A stretch of DNA of 64,000 bases from Ricinus communis. Taxonomy: Eukaryota; Streptophyta; Magnoliopsida; Malpighiales; Euphorbiaceae. The position numbers and the translations under genes were made by a program. Within the stretch, counting starts at the first letter, position 1; each line of letters begins with the position of its first letter. The DNA is taken from assembly GCF_019578655.1 (NCBI RefSeq), contig NC_063260.1, positions 29,660,888 through 29,724,887 on the forward strand, written 5' to 3'. This document shows positions 7,862 through 63,328 of this stretch, in pieces. The notes under the pieces were generated by a model, which saw nothing but the letters and a program-made list of their open reading frames with translations, had not been told where the DNA came from and ran no database searches.

Positions 7862-8464
7862 CTCTGTTACTAATTTGGATCTATCACTAGATACAGGATT
7901 CACCATTGAAGAATGAATCTCCAAACATGATTCTGAACCAGAAAAATCTGATGAAAACGAGGAAGAGAAGCTCGACCCAAGAGATACATTACCAGGGATT
8001 GAATCAAATTCTAGTATGTCCACCATTTCAACTTTCCAAAGAATCCAATCTTGCGTAGAAGTTCTATAGGGAATGTCATGTCTGACCGAGTACCTCCATG
8101 GCGGCGCGCCACTGTTGGCACGTAGAAACTTGCCGCATCTTGTTCTTAACTTCACATGAAACCCTTCTGTTCTGGGCTCCCAATCGATGGAGCTATCCTT
8201 ATGTGATACTGGCATGGTTTGCAATACTTTTTTACCTGAAACGCTCAGTAGGAATTCCTCATCTGAGGCTGTTAGGTACTTGCCGCTGAAACTTTTTAGT
8301 CGGACGTGGTGGGAGTCGCCTTGGATGAACTCGACGGTCCAACGTGCCCTGTGAGAGCATCCGTCATGGCTCTGTCGAACTGTTTCTTCATCATCGTCTG
8401 CTATCAGGAACTTGTCATGGTAGCTCTTCAGTCTTACTACTCTGGCTTTGTTAAAGAACTCCAT
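7862..8464 (-). CDS. DUF569 protein, first exon only seen
   Basis: Paralogue of the DUF569 gene at 5132-6361. The first exon (201 codons) starts MEFFNKARVVRLKSYHDKFL and ends at a strong donor GAG|GTATGT in phase 0. Trefoil repeat signatures are intact: KFLIADDDEETVRQ, HVRLKSFSGKYLTAS, FHVKLRTRCGKFLRANSG, TQDWILWKVEMVDI. A Ser-rich linker replaces the Pro-rich one of its neighbour. The usual second exon is missing from the 1.4 kb downstream. Reading through the donor gives a 236-aa protein with a hydrophobic, implausible tail (stop at 7754). Either the gene splices to the neighbour's exon 2 at 5422 (same phase) or it has lost its C-terminal domain. Confidence 0.8.
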
Positions 8465-8546
8465 GACTAGTGAAGAAAAGTCTTAGCTTGAGAATGGAGA
8501 GAAATTAAAGAAGATAAAGATGATGAAGTGATGCTGGAGAAAGGCT

Positions 8547-16686: not shown

Positions 16687-17489
16687 CTAAACACCACCAT
16701 CCAGTGGGAAGATAAAATTGGAACGCAAGAATGATTCCTTTATAAATAAATTGTTGTAGACTTGATCATGCATCTTCCAATGAATAAATAGTCATCATAT
16801 TCATCCATAACTATGAAAATTTGGAAATGCCCATGTTTATACCTTCAAGCCAATTCCTTTTGCATAAAATTTGTAATTTTTTTTCCTGTGGAGTATATCC
16901 ATGTTCCATTTTTAAGATTACTAGAAAAGAGAAAGGAAAACTTTGTAAATGTAGATTGTATTTGTTGCAGAATTCGACAGCATCTAAACAACATTAAAAG
17001 AATGAGATCTTTTAGTTCAAACTAGAAAAAGGAAGAAATTCTATGCACTAACAAAATTTAGCCAAAGAAATTAGTTTCCTTTATAATTCAAAAAGAAAAA
17101 GCCATAAAATCACATTGTGAAATATGTAACAGCCAACTTGCCTAGGCCATGATTCAAGGAACCATAAGATGCATATTGGCGAGAAATTCCACTCTCTCTC
17201 TCTGTACTGTATGGACATTATAGCTGTTAGTAAGCATGTAATAGCGCAGTGTCTCCTATTGTTTTTGAGTTGGAAAGATTTAAGAAAACGGGTGATTAAC
17301 TGTCATGTTTATAGTTTCAACGGTAAGAAATGACCCGCCACCATTTGTTATACGCCGACGCTGACGTGGCAATAGCGAAACTAAACTGTTTTGTCTGACA
17401 AAAAAAAGAAAAAAAGAAAAACAAAAGTATCGCTGAAAAATCTTCCACTGGTTCCAGAACAGGACCATCCATCACTCGCTAAAAATCCA
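16687..17489. other. intergenic between HIPL and PPR genes
   Basis: The first part is the HIPL 3' UTR. A (TC)n tract lies at about 17191-17202. An in-frame ATG at 17391 extends the next ORF upstream by a Lys-rich stretch that I do not accept as coding. Confidence 0.45.
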
Positions 17490-19454
17490 ATGTCTTCGCT
17501 CTCATCATTTCCTTCTCCAATGCAAGTCTTAGACCCCATATTTTCTCTTCCACTGTTACCCTTACCCAAATCCCGTATCTACACCTTCTCAAGACCCATT
17601 ACTACTCGCTTTCTCCTCCTCTCTTCTTCAGCAACCAAAAGAGACATGTGGACAAGAACCCAGAAAACAACGCCTTCTTATTTAGACCATAGTGTGGACA
17701 TGAAACAGCTATTAATTTCAATTTCCCAAACCCAAAATGAAGTAGAATTGTATTCTTTACTTTCGCCTTATAAAGAGAGACAACTCTCAATTCGTTTCAT
17801 GGTTTCGCTTATCTCGCAAGAAGCCGATTGGCAAAGATCCTTAGCTCTCCTTGATTGGATTAATGAGGTTGCTAGATATTCACCTTCTGTGTTTGCTTAC
17901 AATGTTGTTCTGCGTAATGTGCTTCGAGCCAAGAAGTGGGACCTTGCACATGGCCTGTTTGATGAAATGCGTCAAAGAGCGCTTTCTCCGGATAGATATA
18001 CTTATTCTACCCTTATTACTTCTTTTGGTAAAGCGGGTATGTTTGATGAGTCCCTTTTTTGGTTACAGCAAATGGAGCAAGATCGTGTCTCTGGTGATCT
18101 TGTTTTGTATAGTAACTTGATTGAGCTTTCGCGGAAGTTGTGTGATTATTCTAAGGCTATTTCTATATTTATGAGGCTTAAAAGAAGTGGGATTACGCCA
18201 GACTTAGTTGCTTATAATTCTATGATTAATGTGTTTGGTAAAGCAAGGTTGTTTAGAGAGGCGAGAATGTTAGTTCATGAGATGAGAGAGGTCGGAGTTT
18301 TGCCTGATACTGTTAGTTATTCAACGCTGTTGAGTGTGTATGTTGAGAATGAGAAGTTTGTTGAGGCCTTATCTGTTTTTGCGGAAATGAATGAAGCAAA
18401 TTGCTCGCTTGATTTAATGACATGTAATATTATGATTGATGTTTATGGACAGCTTGACATGGTTAAGGAAGCTGATAGGTTGTTTTGGAGTATGAGGAAG
18501 ATGGGGATTGAGCCGAATGTTGTTAGTTATAATACCCTTTTGAAGGTCTATGGTGAAGCTGAACTTTTTGGGGAAGCTATTCATTTATTTCGGTTGATGC
18601 AGAGGAAAGAGATTGAGCAGAATGTTGTCACATATAATACCATGATCAAGATTTATGGGAAATCACTTGAGCATGAAAAGGCCACAAATCTCGTGCAAGA
18701 GATGCAGAAAAGAGGAATCGAACCAAATGCCATTACGTACTCAACAATAATTTCTATTTGGGGTAAGGCAGGGAAATTGGATAGGGCAGCAATGTTGTTT
18801 CAAAAGCTGAGGAGTTCAGGGGTTGAGATTGATCAGGTTCTCTATCAAACAATGATTGTAGCTTACGAGAGGGCAGGTCTTGTTGCTCATGCCAAGCGTC
18901 TGCTTCATGATCTTAAATGCCCAGATATAATTCCTAGGGACACTGCCATTAAAATTCTTGCCAGAGCTGGTAGGATAGAAGAGGCCACATGGGTTTTTCG
19001 TCAGGCTTTTGATGCTGGGGAGGTGAAGGATATATCCGTCTTTAGATGCATGATTGAGCTATTCTCAAGAAACAAAAGGCCTGCAAATGTTGTTGAGGTT
19101 TTTGAGAAGATGAGAGGAGCTGGATATTTCCCTGATTCTGATGTTATTGCTCTTGTGTTGAATGCTTATGGGAAGTTGAGGGAATTTGAGAAGGCAGATG
19201 CTGTATATAGAGAAATGCAGGAAGAGGAGTGTGTTTTTCCAGATGAAGTTCACTTTCAGATGCTGAGCCTCTATGGTGCAAGAAAAGATTTTATCATGGT
19301 AGAATCCCTGTTTGAGAAGCTGGATTCTGATCCTAACATTAACAAAAAGGAGTTGCATCTTGTTGTTGCCAGCATATATGAAAGGCAAAATAGATTGAAT
19401 GATGCATCACGAATCATGAACAGAATGAGTAAAGAAGGGATGTTGAGATTATGA
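17490..19454 (+). CDS. P-class pentatricopeptide repeat protein, probably chloroplast (At5g39980-like)
   Basis: RNA-binding organelle protein, intronless, 654 aa from the ATG at 17490. I chose that ATG over 17391 because it gives a Ser/Pro/Arg-rich start (MSSLSSFPSPMQVLDPIFSL) typical of a plastid transit peptide, whereas the longer form begins with a run of Lys. About a dozen 35-aa P-type repeats follow: FAYNVVLRNVLRAKKWDLAH, YTYSTLITSFGKAGM, VAYNSMINVFGKARL, VSYSTLLSVYVENEK, VSYNTLLKVYGEAELFGEAI, VTYNTMIKIYGKSLEHEKA, ITYSTIISIWGKAGKLDRAA. No E or DYW tail, so a role in RNA stability or splicing is more likely than editing. The overall pattern matches the Arabidopsis At5g39980 protein (EMB3140/PDM3), from memory. 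Confidence 0.92.
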   Translation: MSSLSSFPSPMQVLDPIFSLPLLPLPKSRIYTFSRPITTRFLLLSSSATKRDMWTRTQKTTPSYLDHSVDMKQLLISISQTQNEVELYSLLSPYKERQLSIRFMVSLISQEADWQRSLALLDWINEVARYSPSVFAYNVVLRNVLRAKKWDLAHGLFDEMRQRALSPDRYTYSTLITSFGKAGMFDESLFWLQQMEQDRVSGDLVLYSNLIELSRKLCDYSKAISIFMRLKRSGITPDLVAYNSMINVFGKARLFREARMLVHEMREVGVLPDTVSYSTLLSVYVENEKFVEALSVFAEMNEANCSLDLMTCNIMIDVYGQLDMVKEADRLFWSMRKMGIEPNVVSYNTLLKVYGEAELFGEAIHLFRLMQRKEIEQNVVTYNTMIKIYGKSLEHEKATNLVQEMQKRGIEPNAITYSTIISIWGKAGKLDRAAMLFQKLRSSGVEIDQVLYQTMIVAYERAGLVAHAKRLLHDLKCPDIIPRDTAIKILARAGRIEEATWVFRQAFDAGEVKDISVFRCMIELFSRNKRPANVVEVFEKMRGAGYFPDSDVIALVLNAYGKLREFEKADAVYREMQEEECVFPDEVHFQMLSLYGARKDFIMVESLFEKLDSDPNINKKELHLVVASIYERQNRLNDASRIMNRMSKEGMLRL

Positions 19455-27285: not shown

Positions 27286-29582
27286 CAACCATTAAGCAAG
27301 AAGGTAGTTTACATGCTCTTGGGTTAGTTTATGTCAGAAGTACAGAGACTGTGATCGCCTAATCTACATTCCCTCAGGTGGGAGGAAAAAGAGTGCTGAA
27401 ACTATATACGGGTCGCTGGCTACATGTAGTGTCATGGAGAAGACGGATTTTGTGCAAAGATATCAATTACAGGGCTGGCATTAATTTTCCACTGTAGTAT
27501 CATGGTGTAGATGACTGAACTCATCCTTGTGATTAGGTGACCCAAAATATTTTATCCTTTTCTTGTTCTTTTTATATTTTTTAGAAAGTCCGTCCATCAA
27601 ATCATTTAGCCTCAATATTGTGCGGAATTGATGGTGAGGTGGATGAACAATGGTAAACACCCAATGTTTAGAAAGAGAAGGAAAAAGAAAAAAAACAGGA
27701 AGTTCAAGTTTTACTGTACGATGGCTTGTATAGACAACTGCTTCTCTGGCACTATCAGACTCCGGTATGAGTGCTGAAAATCCAGAGAAAAAGAAATATC
27801 GTTTAGAGTTCATTTTGATGGTACAATCGCATAATTGTCATTCAATACTGTATGCCCGTCATGGAAATTCCTGGGTGCTAATGTTGTCAGGTTTTATTTT
27901 GATAATGAGTGTTCTTGACCATGGTTCCTGGAAACTTCTATAATCTTGCAACTCCACTACATTTCCACAGTATTGTGATTTCTGTTTTCCATGAAAAATG
28001 GGCTGATCAGGTATTTGCTTTAATGCTTTTTTGTGTAGTCAAAGCACCGACTTGATTCCAAATTGCTGAAGGGCGCAGGCGCTGCAAAAAGTATAGTGAT
28101 GAATTTTTTTAGTTGATAGACTGTCTTGTCTGTCTTGCGAAATTTGTAATTACAAGCTAATAAAGAAAAATACTTTGCATACAGATAGAGAGGGTAAAAG
28201 ACATCTCTTCCCTGACGGGGATTAAGGAATCTTGCAATTAGCAGTAATTGCCATCTGACCAAAAACAGAGTCCCTAATTTATACCCCTTTCTAGTTTTTC
28301 CCCCTTTCAATAACTGTCTCACTAATTAATTACTGATTAACATTTCTAATTAAAAGAAAAAAAAAAGTCACATCCTAGATCATAAAGAGGAATTGATAGT
28401 AGTCTACATATGTCTGGCAGGTAGCCACTTGGACGGTAGAATCCTTCTGTCTCTTTATCTGATTCAAGTGTTTAAATTAACTTAATCACAACCTTAAACG
28501 CCAACCTTATGTGTATTTGTTTATTAGAAAATAGCTGTAATAAAAAAAATAGGTGATTAAATTATATGTATATATAGTACTAAACAAATTTAAATCTTTT
28601 AGAGAGGCTTAATCATCTCGATATCACATCAATTTACTATTAATTAACTTCCATATATGATTTCATAATTTGTTAATAGCATAAGTTGTCAACAGATAGT
28701 ACACAAATAATGATTAATTAACTTTAATCTAAAACATAATAATAAAAATAAAAATAAAAAAACATTTTCAGAAACTCTTGTATATATATAAATCTCATCC
28801 ATTTGACATCACGTGGATGATGAAATGAAACGTAATACAAGTTGATGAATTAAGTCTTAGCCATCAATTCCAATATCTTCTTTGACAGCCAACCATATCT
28901 TCAAGCTGGATTGATCAAATTCAAAAATATATATCTGAAGACGGATAATCTAGCTTGACAAAGTCAAGAAATCAATCTATATATAATATATATCAGTAGA
29001 TAAACTATTGGTGCAAAACCAGTAATAAAATAAATAAGTTTTACCTATTGAAGCAACTATACATACCTTCAAAGAAACAATCAGAAATACAAGTAAACTA
29101 TGTTTAACATAAAATAAAGCATTTGCAACTGGGAGGAGATAATGATGCAGGCAAGCAGCTACAAAGGAACTAATAGAAATTAGAGACTATAAGATTTAAT
29201 TTGAAAGAGTATAGTTTGATTAAGGCTAATTCTTACCTTCACTGTACATTGCAATAATAAATAAGAGCTGTAACAAAGAAATGAAAAACAAATGTCATAT
29301 TGTATTTTCCAATAACAAAGCAGATCATTAAAATAACAATAGCAGAAAGCACGGATAGAGAGAAAACAATTTTCCAAGAAGATGGTATATGTGTACACAT
29401 TTTACAAGAAGAAGATCATACAAAGGCCGGGAGCAAGTAGAAGAAGAAGAAGAAATTGATGTTCTTCTGATCAGCAACCAAAGAGAGACTAGCTACTTAC
29501 ATTGCATACAGCCAAAGGAAACAAAAAGCATAAAGTTGGAACTCCAGTAAAATATTTCTTGAGAAGAGAGAAGTTACAGGTG
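27286..29582. other. intergenic after the GT14 gene
   Basis: The first few hundred bases are the GT14 3' UTR. Short ORFs at 27481-27813 and 28020-28322 (minus) have no family signature. The rest is AT-rich and, since the microRNA loci read leftwards, may hold the 3' part of a primary transcript from the hairpin at 29583. Confidence 0.4.
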
Positions 29583-29662
29583 TGTCTTGTCATAGGATGA
29601 TGGCACTTGCGGCATCTTTTCTACACAGAGGCCGGAGGTGCCACCGCTCCTGCGACAGGACT
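29583..29662 (-). ncRNA. MIR3627: microRNA precursor, miR3627/miR4376-like (copy A)
   Basis: An 80-nt fold-back. On the minus strand the 5' arm carries the candidate guide at 29637-29658, containing TGTCGCAGGAGCGGTGGCAC. The 3' arm reads GTGCCATCATCCTATGACAA, and about 24 of 28 positions pair, counting G:U. Grape miR3627-5p, from memory, begins TTGTCGCAGGAGAGATGG, so the first half is conserved. I call the minus strand because its 5' arm keeps the family core in all copies while the other arm drifts (TGTCATAGGA here), as guide and passenger strands do. In other plants this family targets transcripts of autoinhibited Ca2+-ATPases (ACA10-type). No small-RNA data were available. Confidence 0.65.
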
Positions 29663-30866
29663 CCCCCAACCCCTCATATATGTATATATATATATTATGT
29701 TACATCTCTCCTTCTTCATGGCTGATATTATATACTTGTACGTGAATACATATATATATATAGAGAGAGAGAAAAGGTAGAGAAATTAATGTAGGTGCAT
29801 GCATGGCCTTTCGCATAAAGAGAACAATTCTATGGAAAGCTCAAGAATTGAAAAGTCTTGATGAGCGACAAGTCGAAAACATATTCTATGTAATATATCC
29901 TTGTCAATATACAATCCAGTCTTGCCTCTGGTGAGTTCACATATTTATATAATATGAAAAGTCTTTACTTGCGGAAGCATTTTTTCTCTGACCAGCTATT
30001 GCAAGTTGTTCATTTGACTTGAGTCTTCCAACTTAAGTTGAGGCCACTAGGGTTAACTTCATCTTCTTGTATATGATTCCAGTGGTCCCTTTCAATTATT
30101 AGCCAAGTTTTGACTTATATATATCTATTTCATTTTCAAACCCTCATAATTTGTTTTCTATGTTATTCTGAGTGTCTTTTTGTTAAAGAAATTTATTATT
30201 TATTCTCTCAAAAACGATACTATGTGGAAGGATTAAAAGTTAGCCATCAAACTAGAACTTGAGCTGCAAAAAGCTGATTGCAGGGAATGGTCCTACCTGC
30301 AAAGTACTGCCCAGAGTTATCATTTAGGGACCAGTTTAATATCATCATGGTGGCTAATTCCATTTGCAATAAAAGTCTACAAAGAAAGGTTAGGTCATAA
30401 TTAAATTAAAGAAAGTAAAAGAAAAATCAATAAATTGGAATATGTGGGATTATTTTTGTAAATGTGCTGTGATATTATATATATATATATATATATACAC
30501 ACACTAGAATATGTTGAATTCTAAGGCATGGTGACTAATTGTAGAAACTGGACTTCATGACCTAAATCAAGACATGGATTTGGGAAATAATCAAGAGCGG
30601 ACGATAGCTCCTACTAACCCTTCTTCGCATTCGTTAAAGTTTCTTTTTCTTTGTTTTCTTTTCTTTGTTGCCTTTGTCATCTTCATCTTTTTCTAGTCCC
30701 ATCCCCTAAATATAATGAATCGCTGGTCAAAATAAACCTCAATTATTAGTTTCTTTTTATTTATTTATTTGTTATCTAATGTTATTTATGCAGTAAACGA
30801 AATCTTATTTAATACATTAATTTAACTAATATCAAATTAAGTATAGAAAACTTCAGCTAAGATTGT

Positions 30867-30915
<49 letters not shown>

Positions 30916-33900
30916 AAATGAAACGTATCGTAATCCATTCAAATCATTGATATAATTTTCAAAGATAAAATTGAAATGGTTTTCTGTCAAATTTACATGT
31001 CTAGATCCGCTACTAGAAAAATGGTAAATAAAAATGGAAAGTTGCATGAAATCGATCTTTATATGAATTACCTGTTAATGAAATACCTTCTTTTCCAAGC
31101 CAATTTATAATTATCCATTCTTAATATAGGAAAATTAATTAAGTGACTGAGGCTTGTGTTCCAAACTAATATGAAAGAATAGCTAAAGTAAAAGAGTTAG
31201 AAGTTGCATAGTGATTTGTGAAAATTCTATAATAAGCAACCGGCTTATCTTAATATCAAACAAAATTCCAGGATTATCAACTTCAGGATTCTCATACATA
31301 CATAATGTTATGCACTGTTATGCCAATAAAATAGAATTAGCAATTTGAGATTAAGCAAGAATTAGCAATAGAAAATTTCAAGTATTTCTATCTGGAAATC
31401 CAGATCATCATCCTAGCTTTACGAGGATTGTCTGTGTTGATATTTCCATTAGGAAGACCATCGATTTTCAAGGATGAGGGGAACTAATTAGAAAAAGAAC
31501 TTCTAACTACCTTCTACTAGTCAAGAAACATTACATCAATCAGCTGGAAGCATAAATAAAGTTCCAATCCACCCCAACAAATTATGTTAAAATATATTAA
31601 TAAGCTTACACATATGATCATCCGTCACCTGATTTTTCGTGAGAACAAATATCATCAGAGATTTGGTTTCATATATACCATATATATGCTTGTATCTACA
31701 TGGGGTTTCAACAAGAAACAGGCATAAGGATTGAGCTTAGAAGTCTAAGTTCATCTTTCTAAATCTACTGAATTGCTCTCAAATAATTCAAATACTTTTG
31801 TAGAGAATAATCTTAATTTGAGAAATATATATCCACTGTCGAGAAGACAATGGAAAAAAAAAGAAGAAGAATATTATGAATTAAATGCTTTTACAACCTG
31901 ATTTTGAGTGGTAATGGGATTAGAGAATAGTTGTATATGGATTGTTCGATATGCAAGAGAACTAATTCTCTTACCAATATGCATAATGTATCTTTGCTCT
32001 GTCTTTTAAGGTGAATGTTAACCATGCAATAAGCCAAGATAGATTGTTAATTAGTTGCCATCTCAGGTCCTGGCGATCGGAAAAGAATAAAGCTGTGTTG
32101 GTTTAGAAACGTGATCCTATTATAGATATTCCTTTGTAGCTGATGATGCTGCTTTTGCAGCTTTGCTTTCTTAATAAATTTGTTTTCCCTTCGAAAAAAA
32201 AAAAAAACTAGAACTCGTGGAGTTTGAATTAATATGATTGCTTTTTGTTTATAAGTGTTTAAAGTTCAAAAAAATAATTATTATTTGATTGAAAATTTAG
32301 AAATTGCATACTATTTTAAAATATGGTGGCCCACTAAATTTAAACTATATATGTATAAGTATTCTTATTCAACTTTTGATTCCCATTTCATTATTATGTC
32401 CACATTGAATTTGGATAGAAATTCATATTACTTAATACCTATACAGCTTGAAAATAAAAAATTAACCAACACAATCATAAGTTGTTCGGGAAAACAAGAA
32501 TAAATTATGTTGAAAACATTAAGAAACACAATCATAAATTTTGTGAAGACATTCAGTCAAAAAGGTCATGCAATATGAATATCATTTATGAACATTATGA
32601 AGATTTCATTGGCTAAGAATTTACCTTTAGTTACAGGGTGCATAATCATACATATGTGCTGCTTTAATCCAAGCTTAATAATTAAATGAATAAAAACCAT
32701 CCAAATATTAATAATAAGGGATCTCAAAAGCAAAAATAAAATGTAGTAAAGTACACATTCAACAAATTAACATAGAAATTATAAAAATAACTAAGTGCAA
32801 ATGCTATTAGGAAGGACTACTATTTGTCGTGACTGGATAATAATTTTTATTTATTTTAATATTAAAGAGTTACATGATGGAGAGGTTTAGCTGGTGTCAT
32901 CTCCTACAATGAGAATTTTCTTGGTATGTATAACTTCTTCACTCGTTGAAACAATTATTATTTTATTCTATCATAATAATAATAAAAAAGTATTTTAATT
33001 GTAAGGGCCCATTTCCTGATTTTCTAATAAAATTATATTATGATCTACAGGAGGAAAAGAAAAAGAAAAAGAAAATATCAAAACACCAATTAAATCAGGC
33101 TAGGATCATGTATAGGCACAAGAATTTTATTAATTAATATAGCTTTTAAGCAATATTAGAATTACTAACACAACAGCAATTAGCTGATATTGCCTAAAAT
33201 GACCGAAACCAGGTAAAAAAAGACAGACCCAAGAAAGATATGCACTGGATACTGTGATCAGATGTTGACGGGATCAAGCTCACAGCAGTAACTGCAGAAA
33301 GAAGCAAATGAGTGAGGGAAAGCTTGCAGCATTGCAAAATGCATTCAGAAGCAGCGCAAAGAGCTCAATTCAGAACCTGACAAGTGAAAAACCAGCAGCT
33401 CCTTAAATCTTCTCACGCCTTTATAATCTGCCACATTAGGAACCATGCGCCATTCCTACCCAGACGTCCCTACTTTGATTTTAAAAAGAAACAGAATCAC
33501 GCCCGTTCCATATTCTTTCCTTTTTGTTGGTTTGGTCGTAAGTATGTCAGAGACGGAAGGAACACTGATGCAATCAAGACGCCAAGTCCTAAACATAAAA
33601 AGAAACAAAACCAAAAAAAGAAGAAGAGAGAGTATAATTCCAAAAAGGAATTCCAGTAAAATTTCTGAAGAACATTCATATTAATTAAGAAATACTACTA
33701 CGTTCAATAGATTAAACACCTCTGCAAGCTTATAACTGAAACATAACATACCCTTTCTGTGGAACTCCTTAGCCTGCAGTTTATATAAAGACCTGAAAAG
33801 AAATCCCTAGACGTATACAGTTCAATATAATTCTATACTGATACCTCTATGCATCAAATGACCGTGTGCACGCATGCGGCCAGAGAGATGGTTTAAACTG

Positions 33901-33953
33901 CAATCAATCAGAAGTGGTTATCGATTAGAGTAGGATCTTTCTAGAGGACAAAG
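29663..33953. other. intergenic between microRNA copies A and B
   Basis: No protein gene. The 5' flank of copy A (minus strand) includes ATATGAGGGG. Microsatellites lie at 30476-30496 and 30869-30912. A somewhat GC-richer patch at 33200-33660 has only spurious ORFs. Confidence 0.45.
30869..30912. repeat. (AT)22 microsatellite
   Basis: Uninterrupted AT dinucleotide run of about 44 bp. A shorter (AT)n(AC)n compound repeat lies at 30476-30504. Confidence 0.9.
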
Positions 33954-34035
33954 GGAAGTTCTGTCGAGGAATGATGGTACCTATTGCTATTAATTTTGTA
34001 AACACCAGGTACCATCTTTCCTGCGACAGAACCCC
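33954..34035 (-). ncRNA. MIR3627: microRNA precursor, miR3627/miR4376-like (copy B)
   Basis: About 82-nt fold-back with a very regular stem. On the minus strand the 5' arm holds the candidate guide at 34008-34029 (TGTCGCAGGAAAGATGGTAC inside it). The 3' arm reads AGGTACCATCATTCCTCGAC, leaving about one bulge and one or two mismatches across the guide. The loop is about 24 nt and AT-rich. The guide differs from the recalled grape miR3627 mainly at the 5' base, position 12 and the 3' end (GTAC for GCGC). A weak TATA-like TTATAAAAG lies on the minus strand about 55-60 nt upstream. Same orientation as the other copies. Confidence 0.65.
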
Positions 34036-37000
34036 ACTTTACCCCTCTCTTCCACGCATTTTCAGCTCATCTTTTCAACAGCTTTTATAATAATCTCTTT
34101 GACAGCTAACAAGATTAAGGTAGTCTGTAGACGTTAAACGCCTATACATGCACAATCTTTCCTGAGAAAGAAGTACTCCCACGATACCCTAGCCATCTAC
34201 ATTTCTACTCATTTTCTAGTCACTAGATTAAGAGACACACTCTCTCTTTTAATATCTCTCTCTCCTGCATCTCATGCCCTAATTGCAGAGACTGACTCTT
34301 CTATATATAGAGAAAAAGAAGAAGTATTTTGTCCATTATTCAGTGAAAGAAAATAGAGAAAGATCAGGGAAATGACATGATCATGATTAACGGTGATGCA
34401 TAAGGAGACAATGCATCCATACAGTGGGGAGCTGGCCGGTCTTGAAATGTGCGGTCTTGTGTAGGGCCTAATACACTGAAACATTTGACCATATAATATT
34501 TTAGACAAAATTAAAAGGCTTCATTAAATACTACAAGATAATGTATAATCTTGTGCAGTTCATGCCTAGAAAGTTTTTTGACCTCTTCCAAGTTTGATAT
34601 TAGGAATCCAAAGGATGAGCATCGCCCATTTTGTTAACTGGCAAATTTCTTTTGATGTTTTTTTTTTTGGGGTTATAATTATTAGTATATGGGTCGAGGT
34701 TAAAATTGGCCAACATATATTCCTGGACCAAATCTCTCTGGAATATTTTTATTTTCTGGTCTGATGGGTTAGGCTGAAATTCAGATTCTCGACCATAAAG
34801 AAATAACTAGTCAAAGCACTGTAAGGATAATGACTTATTTTGTTTTTATCTTTAATGAAAGAAATGATGAATTGATACTTTAATGGAGCAGGAAATTTCT
34901 ACTTCAACTTATAAACTTTAATGCCTCATAAACCATTCATATTCTTAATTTTAATTAATCACCAAATAAGTCTCCTCGTCGTGGAGTGTCTTGCTGTGAA
35001 ACACAATGGTCGTCCACATTTCCTAATGTTTTCGGGAATTTGATTTTATAATGCCTATAATGGCAGTGGAAACTGCAAAATGAACCAGTTTTTTTTTTTT
35101 TACTATTTTTTCTTTGTTAAGGATTATTTTTTTTATGAGTGCTTATTAATTACTTAGTAGTTGATTTGGATTAAAAAATTATTTAATCGGGTTAATTATA
35201 GAAAAAAAACTGACTAAATAACACAAAAATAAAATAAGAAAAAAATTAATACTTTTTAAAGATGAAAAAAAAATAATGTCCCATTAATATTTTATTTGAA
35301 GAAGAGACCATTAGTAAGTAAGAAATAGAGAGAGTATTAGATTCCCATTTTTTACTAGAAAAAGCACCACAAACAGGCATAACCTAATAAATGGAAATCA
35401 AATTTATTATTATGACGTTAGAAAGAAAATAATTATGATCCATCGTCAGTTCATCACCACTGGTAAGTAATTGAAAAAAAAAAAAACACTTTTACTTGGA
35501 TAACTTAATTAAATTTGCTTCGTTGTCTTGTGGCTGCCGTACTATATAATTTTTGGTGATATTATATATAAACATAGGACCTAATAGCTAAATATGAATT
35601 GTCATGTGGAGAACTACCGATAAGCATAGTTGAAGGAGCACAAGGCAAAAATTAAGTGCCAATAAATTATATCCACAAGGCAAATTGTAGGGATTCGTGT
35701 CGCAGACGGATGTCTCTTGCTGAAACAATGTTGGCTACTCACACAATAATTAAGTTGCATCTTCATGTATATACTAGTACAGTCATGAGTTTGATAAGAT
35801 ACATTATTTATACCTAAACAATTACACTGTAAAGTTGCATCTTGGAAACAATGTCGGCTTGTTCGGGATGGTCGGTAGGGGACAGAACTTGATGACCCCA
35901 AAGTCTTGAATGATAACAACAATTATTCATGGCTGGAACCCAATGCTCTCTCTTCTCTTTATTTTATATGTATAAAAAAATGGGCAGGTATCAACGGAAA
36001 TTGCATGAGATTTGCTTGCATATATAATTAAGTTTTTGGAGTCGAGTTTTATGATCGATCTGTAGAAAAAAAGATGAAGAAAGCAATAAGCTGGAAGTTG
36101 CATGGCACTTTATTGGGGAGACTTTGTAATTATTAGCGAGCAGCTATTTTTGAATATTCCTACTTACATCCACTGTAATAGAATTTGTTTGCATTTTCCC
36201 AATGCTTTTCTCTTTTAGTCCAAATGATGTTCCGGAGTTGGGCACACTCGATTAAGTCTATATTTATTTTAAATTTAAAATATAAAATATGTTTAAATTT
36301 CTTATATTTTTTTTATTACAATTGTAATAGCTCTTTCCGAACTACTATATTTCGATATTTTGAATTTTATTTTTAAAATATCAAATATAATTCTATATCA
36401 ATAAGTAAATATAAAGCTAATCTAATTAGCAAACGTACCCATAGACAAATAAATGCTTCTTCTATACTAATAAAAAAATAAACAATTTCAAATCTCAATG
36501 AAGCTTTCAAGCCCTTATTCATCCTCACTTGGGTTCACCAAGATGTCTCCTTTCTACCATTTTGAAACTTTTCCATACATCATTTTCATTTCGTTCACAT
36601 TTTTTTTACTAAAATTTGATAAATAATTATAGTTGGAATCCATAGACAATTTTGATTTAAAATCTTGACCTATATATTTACACGTTCTAGATTGAGCCAT
36701 TTTTGACAAATATAAAACAAGAGCAACAAGCTGAAAATTCCACATCTCTTAGAAAATGCTATTCATAACTAATTAGTAGACAACTCCAAGTAGAATTCAA
36801 TCAATCATGGAAAATCTCTATACCGAAACCTCCATTAATTTTCCAAAATGAAGCGAAAAGGATTCAACTGTTCAGAGAAAAAGAAGAAGGAATAAATCCA
36901 GTATCAATTGACTAGCACAAGTGAATGATTCAAAGTCTTGTAAGATCTCTGAATCCTTGAGGCCTTCAAAGAGCAAAACAAACAATTATTATTTGGGAAA

Positions 37001-38159
37001 CTGACTGGGAAGATTAAATTTACATCTGTTCCTTGTGGTTTCCTAGCTGTCTTCCATGAAAAAGAGAGGCATATTTTTGTTCTTTTATAGGTGAGAAAGG
37101 CTTTGTGATATGATTTACTCTTTAAATAACTAAAAGACTAATTCTTATGCATAAATTCGTTAATATGGATGATTCGCTGAGGCTGAGAGCAAAGATCTGT
37201 TTTGTAGCAATAACTTTTAAGTATTTACGAGAATAAATGCAATCAAAAGTTAATGTGCACAATGGATAACTTATTGGAAAATGAATGAGAAATCGAATCT
37301 TTCTTTTTGATATGTTTGGTTTGTTTTAATTCCGATCTTTATTATTGTAAATATCATGTTTTAAAAAAATGTGAAAATGGAAAGTTAATAAGGAAATTCT
37401 GTAAACATTCTACTTTTACAACTAAAGTCTAATATCAAGCAAAAAAAATTATTTTATTATAATCTATTCAGCTCATTCTCTTTTAAGTTTAATATATTAT
37501 TTGTATTGTTTATGGCGAGAAATCATCATATATAATCAAAATCTATTGATTTAAAATTATAGATTTCTAAAATTTTATGTTTGAATTAAACATAAAAATA
37601 ATAGATTTTTTATTTAAAGTTAAATATAATTTTGGGATAAAATAAATTTATTAGGAACAGTATTGAAACAAATAAATAATAAAACAATCTATCATTTTCT
37701 TAAAATAGTGAATTTTGGATTTTTTTTCACTTATTAGATGGAAAATTAAAATTTTTAAAAATAAAAAATTTGGATGGATGAGATATTTTTTAAAATTCAA
37801 TATTTTTACTTGTCAAATAATGAATTTAAACTAAATTCATATATTTTATAAAATTTCTCGGTCTAGACAAAAACTGTGTAAAAATGAGTTGGCAATCTGA
37901 ATAATTATGAACAAAAAAGCTAATAATCATGTAAAACTCCAATAGCTAATGGATGGTGCTAGGAATTTGTTTTTCATAAACCCAACTCACGAATCTCCAA
38001 ATTCCAAGTCTGCTGTAAACAATAACAGCATTAGATTACTATTTACCGAAAAAGAAAAAGAAAGGGAAGGTTAGCAAGAAAAAGAAACGATCCTGACGAA
38101 GACTAGTTTTATTTACCAAGGTATGGATAAGTAAGGCTTGACTCCAGGGCATATAGCAG
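34036..38159. other. intergenic between microRNA copies B and C
   Basis: AT-rich, no supported gene. Near 35720-35860 short phrases recur (AAGTTGCATCTT and AAACAATGT[C/T]GGCT, twice each about 100 bp apart). A T homopolymer lies near 35089-35101. Confidence 0.4.
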
Positions 38160-38181
38160 GTGCCACCAACTCCTGCGACAA
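38160..38181 (-). ncRNA. miR3627-like sequence without a good fold-back (copy C, possibly decayed)
   Basis: The minus strand reads TTGTCGCAGGAGTTGGTGGC, whose first 12 bases equal the recalled miR3627-5p. The expected partner arm is not clear. A short, poor pairing with CTGGAGTCAAG about 25 nt further on (CTTG/CAAG plus CAGG/CCTG) may be the wreck of the 3' arm. Just upstream on the same strand lies GGACAGGAGAGATT, which looks like a second partial copy of the guide. Probably a degenerate member of the cluster, or a site resembling the guide. Confidence 0.35.
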
Positions 38182-39763
38182 GACGAGAATCTCTCCTGTC
38201 CACCTCTTTAACTTCTTCTTTCCTGCCCCTCATATCTCATGCCAAAGTGATACTATTTACTGGCCTATTGATCTTTCCAGTGAAAAGTTTTATCTTAATT
38301 ATGTCTATATATTGATTCTGTTATAGTGGTGGTGCCAGATTGGAGGTTCGCATTTTCACTCATGAATTGTTATTTTAATATGAATTTTAAAAATAACCTT
38401 CGGCATTTTTTAAAGTTTACGATGAAAAGAATAAAAGTTAAAATTAAAATTTTATTCAAATTGAGATATACGTCAAGCACGGGGTAAAATTTATGCTTAA
38501 CTTTCAATTTTATAGTAATTGAAAATAACTAAATAAGGAGAAATTAAAAAATAAAAAAGAAGCAAATGTTGACTAATTAAAATGTATATAAACTAAACCG
38601 GTAGGCTGGCTTGAATAATTCCAGTGTAAAAAGAAAATGCAGTGTGTAACCATGGCTGGAGACGTAGAAGGAGTCATCTGAGACAAAAAAAAGAAATTAA
38701 TAATAAATAAAAAAAGGGCAAAGAAAGAAAAACGTCATCCGGTCTCCTTATTGGGGGAGAATTGAATTTCAAGTTCAACTTTAGGCATCCACCCAATATT
38801 AAATGAATGGGATCCTTAAACAGGTTGAGTTATAACGCCTTTCTTTTTTCTCTAATAAGCCAATAAAATAATCAAGCATATCAAAAGAAGAAGAAAGACA
38901 TAAGAATCAAGCAGAGGTTTGAGGGCCACTGATTCGGGCTTTATTTTTATTATTATTATTATTGTTACTATTATAAAGTGGTCCAAATGCTTTAACAACA
39001 TGTCACTAAAACTTAAATCTCTAGGAAGTGTTTATTATTGTTATTATTTTATATTTTTAAAATTCTTAAAATAAAGAAAATAAAATATATTTATTAGAAA
39101 TTGTTTGTGTTCTCTTTTTAATTTTTTTTTTGTATGGTTTTAAAAAATAAAAATCTATTTTCGATAAATGACTAAAAGCTGTTTTTATAATCTTTGAAAA
39201 CATTAACAAGTTAGAGATTTCTGAGTTTCTTTTTATATTTCTAGTCTTAATAATCTGAGTTTTAGATGGGACTTGATTCCCAACTCATGAAGTTGCTTGA
39301 TCATCTACGACCAAAATAAACATATTCTTATGATATATTTTATGATAATTTTATTTATTGGAGTAATATTTTGATTTAAATAAGCTAAAATCTCATCACA
39401 GATTACAATGGCATAATGTTAATCAGTTCCTGAAAGATTACCTCCACAAGGTGTTAAGATCTATGGACCCTGTAACCAGATTCGGATAGAGCAAGCTCAG
39501 ACTCGCATAGAGTGGACTAATATAGACGGATATGCATCGGTTTAATTGTAGAAATTTTGTTATTATATTAAAAGAAATTATTCAACATATAAAAATAACT
39601 ATAAATTATTGGATGGAGTTTGAAGAATATCTTTTAATCTCTATACTGAAATAAAGGAAATTTATCAGCAAAGGAAGATGAATTAGGTGATGGAGGATAC
39701 GTACTTACCGCTTTAAATAAATCGCAAATACAGAACGGTGAAGCAAAAGAAGTTGAAAGGTAG
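38182..39763. other. intergenic between microRNA copies C and D
   Basis: AT-rich; a (TTA)n run near 38946-38962. No gene or hairpin recognised besides the flanking copies. Confidence 0.4.
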
Positions 39764-39843
39764 CTTGTCGCTAGAGAATGGCTTTAGCTGCGCCCTGCCA
39801 TGGCTACGGATATCGCAGCTGGCGCCATCTCTCCAGCGACAAG
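39764..39843 (-). ncRNA. MIR3627: microRNA precursor, miR3627-like (copy D, closest to the known family)
   Basis: 80-nt fold-back. On the minus strand the 5' arm holds the candidate guide at 39821-39842, beginning TTGTCGCTGGAGAGATGGCG. Against grape miR3627-5p as I remember it, only position 8 and the last base differ. The 3' arm reads AAGCCATTCTCTAGCGACAA. About 26 of 30 positions pair, with one bulge and a three-base mismatch near the loop end. A TATA box (CTATAAATA) lies about 65 nt upstream of the hairpin on the same strand, so transcription could start some 35 nt before it. Best candidate for the active member of the cluster. Confidence 0.75.
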
Positions 39844-39906
39844 GAACCCATAACTTCTCTATTATATTGCACCTTGCTTGCCTAAAACAAACTGTAATTC
39901 GTCGTG

Positions 39907-39915
39907 TATTTATAG
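39907..39915 (-). promoter_or_regulatory. TATA box for microRNA copy D
   Basis: The minus strand reads CTATAAATA, a near-ideal plant TATA box. Its spacing predicts a start at about 39875-39885, just ahead of the hairpin. Inference from position only. Confidence 0.5.
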
Positions 39916-50974: not shown

Positions 50975-52465
50975 CTACTCTTTATTTGGTTTTGGGTTAT
51001 TGTTATTATTCTCTTTTGCTTCTTCCATTACTGCTGATGCTGGTGGTGGTGGTGATAATTCCTTCTCTTTTGCTTCTTCCTCCGCTTTCAACTTTGCTAC
51101 CTCTTTGGCCTTTTCAAGACCTACAATTAGACTCTCCAAGCATACCTCAGCATTCCCAGGAAGAGTCTTTGGCATCAAATGCTCCGCGACATCAGCAGGA
51201 GTCATCTTTACTTCCCTCAGCAAGTCACTAATTTTATCAAACAGATGATGAGATTCAATCTGAATATAGTTGCTAGCCAACTCCTTAAATGCTTCAAAGC
51301 TGCAATATGTCAATTCTATATGCTTGTCCATCCTTCCTCTCCTGACGAGTGCTGGGTCAAGTTTCTCCACAAAATTTGTAGTGAATAATATTAGCCTTTC
51401 TCCTCCACAAGCTGACCATAACCCATCAATGAAATTCAATAACCCAGAAAGAGTAACTTGACTACTTTTGCCATCTCTTTCATCTTTTGGAAGTCTTGGT
51501 TTTTGTTCCTTATTATTCTCATCCCCTTCTTCTGCTTTCTTCTTACTTCTTTGACCAGTTAAATCAAGGGAGCAATCTATATCTTCTATTACAATAATAG
51601 ACTTGCTGGAAGTCTCGATTAATAGCTTTCTTAGCTCAGTATTGTCTTTAACAGCAGTCAATTCAAGATCATATATATCATAGTTCAAAAGATTTGCCAT
51701 TGCTGCAATCATAGTAGACTTACCAGTCCCTGGCGGACCGTAAAGAAGATACCCTCTCTTCCAAGCCCTTCCAATTCTTGCATAGAATTCTTCTGCTTGA
51801 CTGAACGTAATCAAATCATCCATAATTTCCTTCTTTTTCTCTGCTTCCATTGCTAGTGTCTTGAAAGTAGCCGGGTGCTCGAACACTACATGGCTCCAAT
51901 ACGATCCATTGTTAGTATAAAGCTTTCGCTGTCGATTTCTCACCTTAATTGCCTTCCCTTCTCTCAGGACATGATTTAGGTATGGTCCAATTACGACATC
52001 TCTATGTTTCTTATGAAATCTGAGCTTGTAGTACCTTTTCTCATCAGTCACCTGATAAAAGGATAATGTTTGCGACTTGAAAACATTCTTTCCTGAAGCC
52101 CACCATAGCTTCACACCTTCGAATTCATCAGCAACTTCTTCATGATCATCCATGCTAAGAACAAGTGACTGGTTGTTCTTCACCACTTCCGCTTTGAGCC
52201 GCTTCGCTTGCGTAGATGAGCTGGAGCTAAGGTAAGTTTCAATGGCGGAGTAGGCTTCGCTGCGCATCAGACGTTCTCCTGTGAATTCATGAAATGTAAT
52301 TTGAATATAAGGGTAAACAAAAGTGAAGGCTCTTTGAGTGTATTTTTCAAGACGATCTCGCAGTTCATAAGGGAAGTATTGCTTGAACATAGCCCAAACA
52401 AACATTAAACTAGCAATCACTGATCCAACTTGAGCAAGCATATCGCCTTGCTTCAAATGAATCAT
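50975..52465 (-). CDS. OM66/AATP1-type AAA-ATPase, copy 1
   Basis: BCS1-like AAA-ATPase, intronless, 496 aa. An N-terminal anchor (SVIASLMFVWAMFKQYFPYE, residues 15-34) and AAA-associated domain (YPYIQITFHEFTGERLMRSE) precede the AAA core. Walker A is GPPGTGKS at 243-250 and Walker B IIVIEDID at 290-297. A charged insert (about 306-335) follows, then SQVTLSGLLNFIDGLWSACG and the RRGRMDKHIE arginine motif. The tail is Lys/Glu-rich and ends in Asn/Pro repeats. Arabidopsis relatives sit in the mitochondrial outer membrane or ER and are stress- and salicylate-induced. Tandem with the paralogue at 53966, same strand. An alternative start is the next Met (MLAQVGS, residue 9), which resembles the paralogue's start more closely. 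Confidence 0.93.
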   Translation of the reverse strand: MIHLKQGDMLAQVGSVIASLMFVWAMFKQYFPYELRDRLEKYTQRAFTFVYPYIQITFHEFTGERLMRSEAYSAIETYLSSSSSTQAKRLKAEVVKNNQSLVLSMDDHEEVADEFEGVKLWWASGKNVFKSQTLSFYQVTDEKRYYKLRFHKKHRDVVIGPYLNHVLREGKAIKVRNRQRKLYTNNGSYWSHVVFEHPATFKTLAMEAEKKKEIMDDLITFSQAEEFYARIGRAWKRGYLLYGPPGTGKSTMIAAMANLLNYDIYDLELTAVKDNTELRKLLIETSSKSIIVIEDIDCSLDLTGQRSKKKAEEGDENNKEQKPRLPKDERDGKSSQVTLSGLLNFIDGLWSACGGERLILFTTNFVEKLDPALVRRGRMDKHIELTYCSFEAFKELASNYIQIESHHLFDKISDLLREVKMTPADVAEHLMPKTLPGNAEVCLESLIVGLEKAKEVAKLKAEEEAKEKELSPPPPASAVMEEAKENNNNNPKPNKE

Positions 52466-53040
52466 TTTCGGAATGTATTGACTATTCCTCGTAGCTAAAT
52501 CTCTCAGGAGACTTGGTGCTGATGATCTTGGTGGGTTTGGTTATGTGAAGGGAAAGGGTAAGTGATTCAATTAGATAAATACACAAGGGCGTGCTAATGG
52601 TGTCGACGACCTGGGAAGGGGGAAAATTTCTCTTAAATCAATATGTGATATTAAAATTGATTGGTACCTTTCAAGAAGAAGCCAAAAAAGTGGGCAAAGT
52701 TAGATAATCTTCTCGGCTAAGTTAGGAGATGTCACTGTGACATAGGATAGGGTTGCAATTACAATTGTTTAACATTGATGTCGTGGTCTATTACTAAGCG
52801 AAATGACCACAAAATGCCATAAGAAATCAGGGGACCAAGCTTCTTGTCCGCGATTCCCATTGGCGAAAATTTTATATTTTGGGTGGTTGAGACTTTGTAA
52901 TAAAATATCATATCCGACAATTCACACCAGACATAAAATTCATTGAGAAAAATATCTTATTGAAATAATTAGGTTTCATCAGAAAAGCAAATGGATCAAC
53001 GAATTCTGAATTCCGTCTTTATCTTTGCTTCTTTTTTCCT
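52466..53040. other. spacer between AAA-ATPase copies
   Basis: Promoter side of copy 1 (minus). No clear TATA box close to the start. Nothing else recognised. Confidence 0.4.
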
Positions 53041-53151
53041 TCATTCACTCGCCTCTTTTTCCTTGGTTTCTTCCCCTTTTCTTTTCTTGGTAGATTCAAG
53101 CTCTGTGTCCAGCTCGATAGTTTCCAAATCCTTCTTCGCCTCTTTCATATT
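53041..53151 (-). pseudogene. possible C-terminal remnant of a third AAA-ATPase copy
   Basis: A 36-codon minus-strand reading frame (MKEAKKDLETIELDTELEST, then KKRKGEETKEKEASE and stop) looks like the Lys/Glu-rich tails of the two flanking AAA-ATPases (for example LKAEEEAKEKELS). It lies in the same orientation between them, with a stop just upstream and no AAA core. Low-complexity similarity makes this tentative; a chance K/E-rich frame is possible. Confidence 0.35.
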
Positions 53152-53965
53152 AGTAAGTCTTTCTTTTTACTTGTATTAAAAAAGACCAATGACTAGATAA
53201 TAATAAAACAGTCGGTGACAGGGGATTTTCTTACTAAGCAAATGCTTTTGTTAATAGTAAACTATATATTTTATAAAATATTTATAAACAAAATCATTAC
53301 GTGTGTTTGTATACTTCTACATTTTCAACACTTAACTCTATATTTTTAAGAGGCTGTCCCAACAAAAGCATACACCGATTCCATAATGAATGGTCGAGTT
53401 ATAAGAGTAAGAATGAAATAATAATTTTTCTTTTCTTTAAAAAAGAACATGAAGAAGTTTATTTGAACTCAAAACACTTTGCATGTGATTAGATTCTATT
53501 TGAATCAAAATTCTTAGCATTTAAATAATTTCATGATAAAACAATTACTTCAAAATTTTAGATAATTAAATTCTCAAACAATAAAGACATTAGACTTTAA
53601 GATCTTAGGAGATAAAGGGCCTGAGATTTATAAGTTTTAAAACTTAAAAGTTGTCCAGAATTTAAAATTTTATCAAAGAACAGATTGGCCAAGTTCTTCT
53701 TCAGTGTATGTTTCCGTACATCCAATCAAATGAGGTAAAAAAAGGAAAAAAAAAAAAGCAATTTAATCGGTGAAATTTTGATTAATTAGACAGGGAAAAT
53801 AATATATTGAAGAAACTGATACAATTAAGTAGCTTTAGATTACACAATACCTAATTAACAACTTAACTTGTGATCACTAACAAGTTTTATTCTAAAAATC
53901 AGGAACCCTAAGAAGAGCCAATTTCTCATTGGCATAGTTAAGCCACCACACAGTTTAGTTTGTCT
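53152..53965. other. spacer between AAA-ATPase copies
   Basis: AT-rich with an A-rich run near 53744-53757. The part next to 53966 is the 3' UTR of copy 2. Confidence 0.4.
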
Positions 53966-55537: not shown

Positions 55538-55607
55538 TCTTGGATAGTGGATTGGAGAAGAGAATGGTAATTATTAAGATATAAATTGAAGAGACATTCA
55601 TGCATAC

Positions 55608-62700: not shown

Positions 62701-63328
62701 TCTGCTCAGAAGTATGAAATTTCTTCTCATTGATTGAAGAATCTCTGAAGTCTGACATGTGAATTGGTTTTCATAAATTCATCACCGCAGAAGTTACAGT
62801 TTTATGTTTAATTTAAAAGGAGAAATGAAAACAATCAATGAGCTCTCATATTTTCAATAGATTTCTGTTCATGTAAATCAATCAGAATAGCGTATATCGC
62901 CCTAATTTAGGGCATATAATCACAGAACTCATTAATTTCCTCAATGAAAAAACATATAAAAAGTCTTATAAACCTAACTAACCATTACAGAAATAATTCG
63001 AATAAAGAGAGATCAGAGTGTGCTAAAATTAGGTAATCAGTCATGGTGAAATCAGAAACACGGACCAATTAATTTCACTCATCATATCTCTTTTTTTCCA
63101 TCTCCGATTAATCAAGATCAAACGAAAACGAAACTTTTAAAAAGAAAGAAAATAGATCTATAAGAAATTGGAATTAGGAAAAAGAAATCATCAGAGACTT
63201 AAATACCATGAATCATGGAACTAGTCCATCATATTGTTGCAGTATTTTCTCATCACTTGAGTTGTGTTAGAAAAGCCGAATAGAAAAATAATAAACAGAA
63301 AGAGAAATGATGCAGAAGAGAAACATAC

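Follow-up and report, generated by a model that had tools for sequence, protein, structure and literature searches.

The stretch of castor bean (Ricinus communis) DNA analyzed here, 64,000 nucleotides in full and hereafter the window, harbors, within approximately 10,000 bases, three small-RNA genes together with two decayed copies, all on the minus strand. Throughout the text we refer to the intact copies as s1, s2 and s4 and to the decayed ones as s3 and x5, and we give the published castor names (Rco-miR) of the guides. The features are as follows:

29579..29666, minus strand: s1 fold-back precursor, miR3627-type (Rfam MIR3627 28.2 bits, E 0.044; fold z -2.28)
29637..29658, minus strand: s1 guide, 22 nt, an exact match to Rco-miR051 (21/22 to cassava mes-miR3627)
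29585..29605, minus strand: s1 predicted star, 21 nt (from the fold, 2-nt 3′ overhang)
33952..34038, minus strand: s2 fold-back precursor, miR5225/miR3627-type (Rfam MIR5225 46.3 bits and MIR3627 44.2 bits; fold z -9.89)
34009..34030, minus strand: s2 guide, 22 nt, an exact match to Rco-miR042 (21/22 to poplar Ptc-miRn15)
33958..33978, minus strand: s2 predicted star, 21 nt (from the fold)
34152..34189, minus strand: x5, decayed fragment, a copy of the s2 5′ arm and lower stem (score 29 against s2)
34303..34309, minus strand: weak TATA-like element (CTATATATAG context), 271 nt upstream of the s2 hairpin
38158..38184, minus strand: s3, a decayed duplicate of s1's guide arm, with a 1-nt insertion and the opposite arm lost (27-nt match to s1)
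39756..39851, minus strand: s4 fold-back precursor, miR3627-type in the miR391 register (Rfam MIR3627 39.2 bits, E 2.2e-5; fold z -7.78)
39820..39841, minus strand: s4 guide, 22 nt, an exact match to Rco-miR031 (20/22 to poplar Ptc-miRn32, 19/22 to cassava novel-38)
39764..39784, minus strand: s4 predicted star, 21 nt (from the fold)
39908..39914, minus strand: TATA-like element (TCTATAAATA context), a weak candidate promoter 63 nt upstream of the s4 hairpin

The motif TGTCGC[A/T]GGA occurs exactly four times in the 64 kb, always on the minus strand (29648-29657, 34019-34028, 38171-38180 and 39832-39841), just as an earlier note on this DNA had reported, and with one mismatch allowed a fifth match appears in the opposite arm of the s4 hairpin. 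Shuffles searched with the one-mismatch motif gave a mean of 1.75 matches, and because 2 of 100 reached five, the ten-base motif taken alone is only modest evidence. The longer arm comparison is decisive: with the 5′ and 3′ arms of s1, s2 and s4 as six queries against both strands of the window, scores of at least 28 were obtained only at the four sites and at 34152-34189 (x5), and none of 1278 mononucleotide-shuffled sub-windows reached 28 for any query (top score 24). The copy-to-copy matches span 23-41 nt.

Three of the four motif sites lie in the 5′ arm of a fold-back, a feature of the earlier description that is borne out by fold energies compared with those of 200 shuffles. None of the shuffles folded as well as s2 (site 34008; -54.8 kcal/mol, z -9.9) or s4 (site 39821; -62.0 kcal/mol, z -7.8), the fold of s1 (site 29637; -41.7 kcal/mol, z -2.3) is only moderate, with 4/200 shuffles as good, and s3 (site 38160; -23.2 kcal/mol, z -0.9, 39/200 as good) forms no hairpin. 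Among the first 20 guide positions, 4 are unpaired in s1, 2 in s2 and 3 in s4, few enough mismatches for the stem-loop of a plant microRNA gene. The opposite arm has drifted more, again as previously noted: across the three sequences, which are all that this count rests on, 15 of 22 guide columns are invariant, as are 9 of 21 star and 3 of 37 loop columns. In s1, s2 and s4 alike a 22-nt guide lies over a predicted 21-nt star, a form known for triggering secondary siRNAs.

The guides themselves were sequenced in 2013, when they were listed as three separate novel miRNAs (PMC3722108). From the 72 novel castor candidates of that study, exactly three match the window perfectly, namely the guides of s1, s2 and s4 (PMC3722108, Table 5); Rco-miR051, Rco-miR042 and Rco-miR031 are molecules identical to these guides, with the exact 22-mers published from three of five libraries each. 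Each is assigned one locus and marked as conforming to the Meyers criteria, and a star read is recorded for Rco-miR051 and Rco-miR042 and none for Rco-miR031 (PMC3722108). Reads in leaf, root, seed1, seed2 and endosperm number 687, 523, 23, 0 and 0 for Rco-miR051, 0, 3225, 76, 0 and 863 for Rco-miR042, and 132, 114, 64, 0 and 0 for Rco-miR031 (PMC3722108). Differences in read counts between members are sharp, and the zeros may reflect the calling pipeline. The main text of that study names each of the three once, in the table, and states no common family or locus, and an earlier description of the cluster was absent from the matches listed in the partly accessible open-access literature, which did not include Xia et al. 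2013.

The proposed four-member miR3627-like cluster holds for s1, s2 and s4, whose exact guides have been sequenced, and fails for site 38160, which is decayed, lacks a hairpin and is unlisted. This site, s3, matches s1 over 27 nt (score 37; 0/500 shuffles), gave no match in the Rfam or covariance-model searches and is missing from the list of 72 novel castor miRNAs (PMC3722108, Table 5). The x5 fragment resembles s2 (score 29; 0/500 shuffles) and carries a guide match with four mismatches at 34150-34171, whereas 0/100 dinucleotide-shuffled windows contain such a match; it too is without a covariance-model match. That model was made from s1, s2 and s4 (whose matches are therefore by construction) and run without filters, and beyond these three and their complements its best match in the window had an E of only 0.75. 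A plus-strand look-alike near 35697, spotted by eye, was dropped (-18.5 kcal/mol over 121 nt, no shuffle control). We do not claim a segmental duplication with long flanks: of 12 flank comparisons, those of s1 with s2, one upstream and one downstream, were the only two to outscore every one of 60 shuffles. Flank homology is thin, and the flank sequences are partly low-complexity.

In an Rfam search of the 64 kb with E up to 5, matches to MIR3627 (RF03600) and MIR5225 (RF03517) occur only at s1, s2 and s4. The best is s2 (33945-34038), with an E of 7.5e-7 for MIR3627 and 9.5e-7 for MIR5225; MIR3627 is the best family for s1 and s4. All scores lie below the gathering scores of 64 for MIR3627 (s2 44.2, s4 39.2, s1 28.2 bits, s3 unmatched) and 72 for MIR5225 (s2 46.3 bits), hence we call s1, s2 and s4 relatives rather than members at the curated threshold. 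No miR390 match was found at the cluster sites up to E 5, and the MIR391 (RF03334) score at s4 (19.1 bits, E 7.4) is at noise level, with only the register in agreement. Because both strands score nearly alike at s2 (46.3 bits on the minus, 45.7 on the plus strand) and at s1, the strand assignment rests on the sequenced guides.

What separates the copies is register. The GGA core lies at position 10 of the s2 guide (as in miR5225), 9 of the s1 guide (as in miR3627) and 8 of the s4 guide (as in miR391 and miR390). A 22-nt 5′-arm guide in the UUGUCGCAGGAG register of MIR3627 is found at s1 only, and a 22-nt guide in the UCUGUCGC register of MIR5225 at s2 only. What is new here is the one-base stagger between the 5′ ends of the sequenced guides, which places them in the miR5225, miR3627 and miR391 registers. 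The cluster combines exact guides, hairpins, a single orientation, these three staggered 5′ registers and sub-cut-off kinship to MIR3627 and MIR5225.

The s1 guide agrees with mes-miR3627 in 21 of 22 bases, in register, in its length of 22 nt and in its 5′-arm position, and differs in its first base (U in cassava, C in castor) and in the sub-gathering score of its precursor. The s2 guide shares its register with MIR5225 and Ptc-miRn15 and matches the latter at 21/22, grape va-miR041 at 19/22 and peanut miR5225 at 18/22; from peanut miR5225 it differs in the 3′ half, and its precursor too is sub-gathering. The s4 guide has the register of the miR391 group (peanut miR391 17/21, Ptc-miRn32 20/22, cassava novel-38 19/22), yet by letters peanut miR5225 (18/20) is no further from it than peanut miR391, and s1 is similarly placed between grape miR3627-type va-miR011 (17/22) and peanut miR5225 (17/21). 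Outside Malpighiales letters alone fail to sort the copies into the named families, and their equation with those families rests on register. The castor rco-miR390 shares the register of s4 and 14/21 bases, but is 21 nt long. Peanut miR4376 has the core common to the castor guides (17/21 with s4), but its register is shifted inward by another base (core at 7), a register that the three sequenced castor guides all lack. The miR3627/miR4376-like label of the earlier note is sound as to miR3627 kinship and needs amending as to register, with s2 in that of miR5225 and s4 in that of miR391/miR390, not miR4376. The miR3627/miR4376 group reportedly descends from miR390, an account ascribed to Xia et al. 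in the Plant Cell in 2013.

We consider it probable that s1, s2 and s4 with the decayed s3 and x5 form a tandem cluster whose three 22-nt guides are the castor small RNAs already sequenced. A single gene derived from miR390 likely gave rise to the cluster by duplicating locally, and the guides would silence mRNAs for Ca2+-ATPases of the ACA10 type. The target assignment draws on relatives. In the published excerpts that bear on targets, cassava mes-miR3627 is listed as a trigger at Autoinhibited Ca2+-ATPase 10 (ACA10) and also at a second Ca2+-ATPase; in grape miR5225, miR3627 and miR4376 are all given as targeting ACA10, a phasiRNA locus; in Malus hupehensis the same ACA8 gene is assigned to miR3627 and miR5225; and a Salix miR3627 entry names an autoinhibited calcium ATPase. 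Reported targets elsewhere are less uniform: apple miR3627 is assigned an amino acid transporter, and in Malus hupehensis miR3627 is also given an AT-hook gene. By analogy with the cassava, grape and Malus forms, the castor guides would direct cleavage of ACA10/ACA8 mRNAs and phased siRNA production. Dicer would cut each stem to leave a 22-nt guide with one base more than its 21-nt star, and the 22-nt guides, as listed for the cassava relative, may then cleave the target and start phased secondary siRNAs.

That the guides have instead split their targets, each copy ruling a different gene set, we think unlikely but seriously arguable. The guides agree pairwise, in register, at 16-17 of 20-21 bases, their tissue counts differ (PMC3722108), and the same excerpts list other targets for two relatives: poplar Ptc-miRn32 has a beta-catenin repeat gene, weakly supported, and Malus hupehensis miR391, unlike miR3627 and miR5225 there, has transmembrane protein 14C. 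Against such a division, as far as these excerpts go, the miR5225 and miR3627 forms of grape and Malus hupehensis converge on the same Ca2+-ATPase and the cassava form of s1 is listed at both ACA10 and a second pump. The locus lends itself to asking whether a single calcium-pump mRNA is acted on by several 22-nt triggers that differ in register.

A single polycistronic transcript yielding all of the guides is distinctly improbable. It would fit the common strand and the lack of an intervening protein gene: in line with the earlier note, frame listing and Pfam showed none between the sites, a search that short exons would escape. In 28-44 kb the longest stop-to-stop frame, which overlaps a hairpin, has 112 aa, and none of 10 of the 12 frames of at least 75 aa in 27.9-44 kb scored above the curated Pfam cut-off (best E 0.021), the other two, at 41.8-42.4 kb, lying outside the cluster. 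However, the span is 10 kb, the counts of s2 (root 3225, leaf 0) and s1 (leaf 687, root 523) diverge (PMC3722108), and TATA-like elements, of a kind often met in AT-rich DNA, stand upstream of each site. The one at 39908..39914 is the only TATAWAW within 500 nt upstream of s4, and s2 has another TATA-like element 51 nt upstream of its hairpin. Each gene is more probably transcribed from a promoter of its own.

It is very improbable that the hairpins are MITE or other inverted-repeat copies giving siRNAs rather than microRNAs. They are imperfect palindromes matched on both strands by Rfam and the covariance model, and grape MIR3627 is described as atypical and unstranded, with phased and antisense reads. 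Set against this are the 22-nt reads, the star reads for two members, a guide arm that is the most conserved part of the hairpin, and near-identical guides in poplar and cassava. We rejected such an origin on the single genome locus published for each guide (PMC3722108), which also speaks against the MITE family in hundreds of copies that the earlier note had raised as a counter-case, and on the finding that s3 and x5 are the only arm copies in the 64 kb beyond the three hairpins. Scarcely credible is an independent origin with likeness only through the short common core, which the loops and flanks, hardly alike outside the arms, might suggest, given matches of 23-41 nt that 0/1278 shuffled sub-windows equal in score, a strand, arm, 22/21 geometry and Rfam family common to s1, s2 and s4, and collinear poplar relatives of two members.

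Linkage in other plants extends the case for local duplication of a single gene. In poplar, Ptc-miRn32 (10888890) and Ptc-miRn15 (10902829) lie 13.9 kb apart on scaffold_17, both on the plus strand, so that relatives of two castor members recur in matching registers, strand and order, with the register-8 copy upstream of the register-10 copy. Grape chromosome 14 carries register-9 and register-10 forms, although the distance of 316 kb between them counts against close linkage, as does the placing of the one Salix miR3627 entry seen, on chromosome 4. Because registers are linked in poplar and grape, separately named families may be tandem neighbors by origin. More specifically, we propose, at somewhat less than even confidence, that miR5225, miR3627 and the miR391-register form were tandem neighbors in one ancestral eudicot locus, that the Dicer cut slipped by one base with each new copy, and that the registers have been fixed since castor and poplar split, with castor keeping three registers within 10 kb and two dead copies as relics. 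The copies whose cut site slid after duplication would then be the miR5225, miR3627 and miR391 of other plants' annotations.

Three castor microRNAs already in print under separate names are here placed in one tandem locus, where the sequenced products of neighboring copies are offset by single bases and so take the registers of families that carry different names. Should this be true in other genomes, a common locus history could unite these families. Slippage of the register following tandem duplication would change a microRNA seed with little change to the stem and, if real, is open to study in a short region that holds live copies alongside dead ones.

A glycosyltransferase exon, looked at by PDB search, is a neighbor of the castor cluster, which sits in a block that runs glycosyltransferase, MIR cluster, NPF, AAA-ATPases. 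In keeping with the species assignment, the window also encodes a PPR protein that, along 71% of its length, matches one from Ricinus communis at 100% identity.

The fold-back precursors s1, s2 and s4 are real microRNAs, their guides being the only three matches when all 72 novel castor miRNA candidates listed from five libraries by Xu et al. 2013 (PMC3722108) were mapped to the window. The earlier note had claimed a four-member miR3627/miR4376-like microRNA cluster; these three members stand, and the fourth site, s3, is a dead copy without a fold.

29637-29658, minus strand: s1 guide, matching Rco-miR051 (PMC3722108)
34009-34030, minus strand: s2 guide, matching Rco-miR042 (PMC3722108)
39820-39841, minus strand: s4 guide, matching Rco-miR031 (PMC3722108)
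38160, minus strand: s3, decayed site with a 27-nt match to s1 carrying a one-base insertion (0/500 shuffles)
34152-34189, minus strand: x5, decayed fragment with a 38-nt match to the 5' arm and lower stem of s2 (0/500 shuffles)

In leaf, root, seed1, seed2 and endosperm, respectively, the table gives 687, 523, 23, 0 and 0 reads for Rco-miR051, 0, 3225, 76, 0 and 863 for Rco-miR042, and 132, 114, 64, 0 and 0 for Rco-miR031; it marks all three as single-locus and as passing the Meyers criteria, and lists star reads for Rco-miR051 and Rco-miR042 (PMC3722108). Each name appears once in the main text of that paper, in the table, and the three guides are absent from the ten novel castor miRNAs of a joint cassava and castor study (PMC4124141).

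The ten-base motif on which the sites had been proposed occurs exactly four times at the expected places, always on the minus strand. Its placement in the 5' arm of a fold-back holds for s1, s2 and s4, which fold better than shuffled sequences (196/200, 200/200 and 200/200), and fails for s3, where the remainder of the stem is lost. Among the three hairpins the guide arm is indeed kept more than the opposite arm, with 15/22 invariant columns in the guide, 9/21 in the star and 3/37 in the loop. Apart from the four sites, x5 is the sole arm copy in 64 kb at a score threshold reached by 0 of 1278 shuffled sub-windows; it lies ~115 nt upstream of the s2 hairpin and is a fifth, decayed copy missing from the earlier list. 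The covariance model run without filters gave no match at s3 or x5.

Rfam MIR3627 matched s2 (44.2 bits, E 7.5e-7), s4 (39.2 bits, E 2.2e-5) and s1 (28.2 bits, E 0.044), and MIR5225 matched s2 (46.3 bits, E 9.5e-7), with no match to either family elsewhere in the window up to E 5. All of these scores lie below the curated cut-offs, and by the strict Rfam test s1, s2 and s4 are not members. Being near-palindromes, the stems score on both strands, and the strand of the hairpins was assigned from the sequenced guides. Judged from the Rfam matches, homology to the family is clear for s2 and s4; for s1 it is clear once the guide evidence is added. Xia et al. 2013 reportedly derived this group from miR390 and mentioned shifted processing. 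The nearest published guides we encountered are cassava mes-miR3627 for s1 (21/22; PMC4730657), poplar Ptc-miRn15 for s2 (21/22; PMC3630063) and poplar Ptc-miRn32 for s4 (20/22), followed for s4 by cassava novel-38 (19/22; PMC4124141).

When the guides were aligned on the shared GGA core, their sequenced 5' ends shifted by one base per copy, placing the core at position 10 in s2, 9 in s1 and 8 in s4. Register 10 is also that of peanut miR5225 and of the poplar relative of s2, register 9 that of cassava mes-miR3627, and register 8 that of peanut miR391, castor miR390 and the poplar relative of s4; peanut miR4376 has its core at position 7 (peanut names as listed in PMC5335773). Telling against a straightforward reading, letters alone fail outside Malpighiales to sort the copies into named families: the s4 guide agrees at 18/20 with peanut miR5225 and 17/21 with peanut miR391, and the s1 guide at 17/22 with the grape miR3627 form and 17/21 with each of peanut miR5225 and miR391. 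It is on register that the castor copies are equated with the named families.

Poplar holds a comparable pair, with the s4 relative (register 8) listed at scaffold_17:10888890-10889033 (+) and the s2 relative (register 10) at scaffold_17:10902829-10902928 (+) (PMC3630063). The two lie on one strand 13.9 kb apart, the register-8 gene upstream of the register-10 gene, an order shared with castor. Linkage group XVII is likewise where an earlier study of poplar put the relative of s2 (PMC2811130). On grape chromosome 14 a register-9 form (14:17492727) and a register-10 form (14:17809215) are linked by position, yet 316 kb apart (PMC3353164). Against an old cluster stands the single Salix miR3627 encountered, which maps to chromosome 4 (PMC8325687).

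The microRNA molecules and their family are already known. Among the open-access literature matches listed, a set that excludes Xia et al. 2013, we found no account of the castor cluster, of its collinearity with poplar or of tandem copies matching the registers; passages from pear, apple, peach and tomato papers mention the family, or clusters of microRNAs at large, but not the castor arrangement.

One extra base in the guide arm gives every intact hairpin, read in the sequenced registers, a 22-nt guide opposite a predicted 21-nt star. Such 22/21 asymmetry yields 22-nt guides that can initiate secondary siRNAs. By analogy, the simplest reading for castor is that several triggers, each offset by a base, would act on shared Ca2+-ATPase targets, their dosage being tissue-specific, since relatives in cassava, grape and Malus hupehensis are reported at Ca2+-ATPases. 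The cassava relative of s1 is entered at Autoinhibited Ca2+-ATPase 10 in a trigger-sequence table, which we take from its headings and the abstract to be a phasiRNA table (PMC4730657); in grape, one ACA10 region, a phasiRNA locus, is targeted by miR5225, miR3627 and miR4376 (PMC6404619); and in Malus hupehensis the same ACA8 gene is assigned to miR3627 and miR5225 (PMC4523022). Other listed targets do not fit a shared target, namely an amino acid transporter for apple miR3627 (PMC3446319), an AT-hook gene and transmembrane protein 14C for Malus hupehensis miR3627 and miR391, respectively (PMC4523022), and the weak listed target of Ptc-miRn32 in poplar. The cassava table also prints the miR3627 sequence at a second Ca2+-ATPase under a miR393-variant label, apparently a table slip (PMC4730657).

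Differing read profiles speak for separate promoters of the copies, and so does the presence of TATA-like elements upstream of every site, at 63 nt for s4, 51 and 271 nt for s2, 328 nt for s3 and, for s1, at twelve positions within 500 nt, many in AT repeats. Elements of this kind are weak promoter evidence where the DNA is AT-rich.

The cluster lies among the following protein genes.

2611-4164, plus strand: pentatricopeptide (PPR) protein gene
17487-19451 (17.5-19.5 kb), plus strand: second PPR gene, an At5g39980 relative by the listed names of its relatives
23.2-27.3 kb (exons): Core-2/I-branching glycosyltransferase, around the microRNA cluster
46.4-48.0 kb: POT/NPF transporter, around the microRNA cluster
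50975-55570, minus strand: two adjoining AAA-ATPase genes, long single frames (AAA_assoc; AAA lid At3g28540-like), around the microRNA cluster

With At5g39990 a GlcAT14 and At5g40000/40010 AAA-ATPases, these surroundings look like a putative conserved gene block. The first PPR protein, aligned over 71% of its length, shows 100% identity to a Ricinus communis protein, and its next named relatives (72-82%) are from other Euphorbiaceae. The Rhododendron simsii relatives of both PPR genes bear close locus numbers (Rhsim10G0031500 and Rhsim10G0030900), which hints at a gene block that is old and conserved. Elsewhere in the window, two adjoining minus-strand frames at 5741-8482 are alike by eye, the first being a DUF569 beta-trefoil protein (Pfam), and four C/D-box snoRNA genes, snoR64, U54, SNORD18 and snoZ199, cluster on the minus strand at 62699-63263 with scores above the Rfam gathering thresholds.
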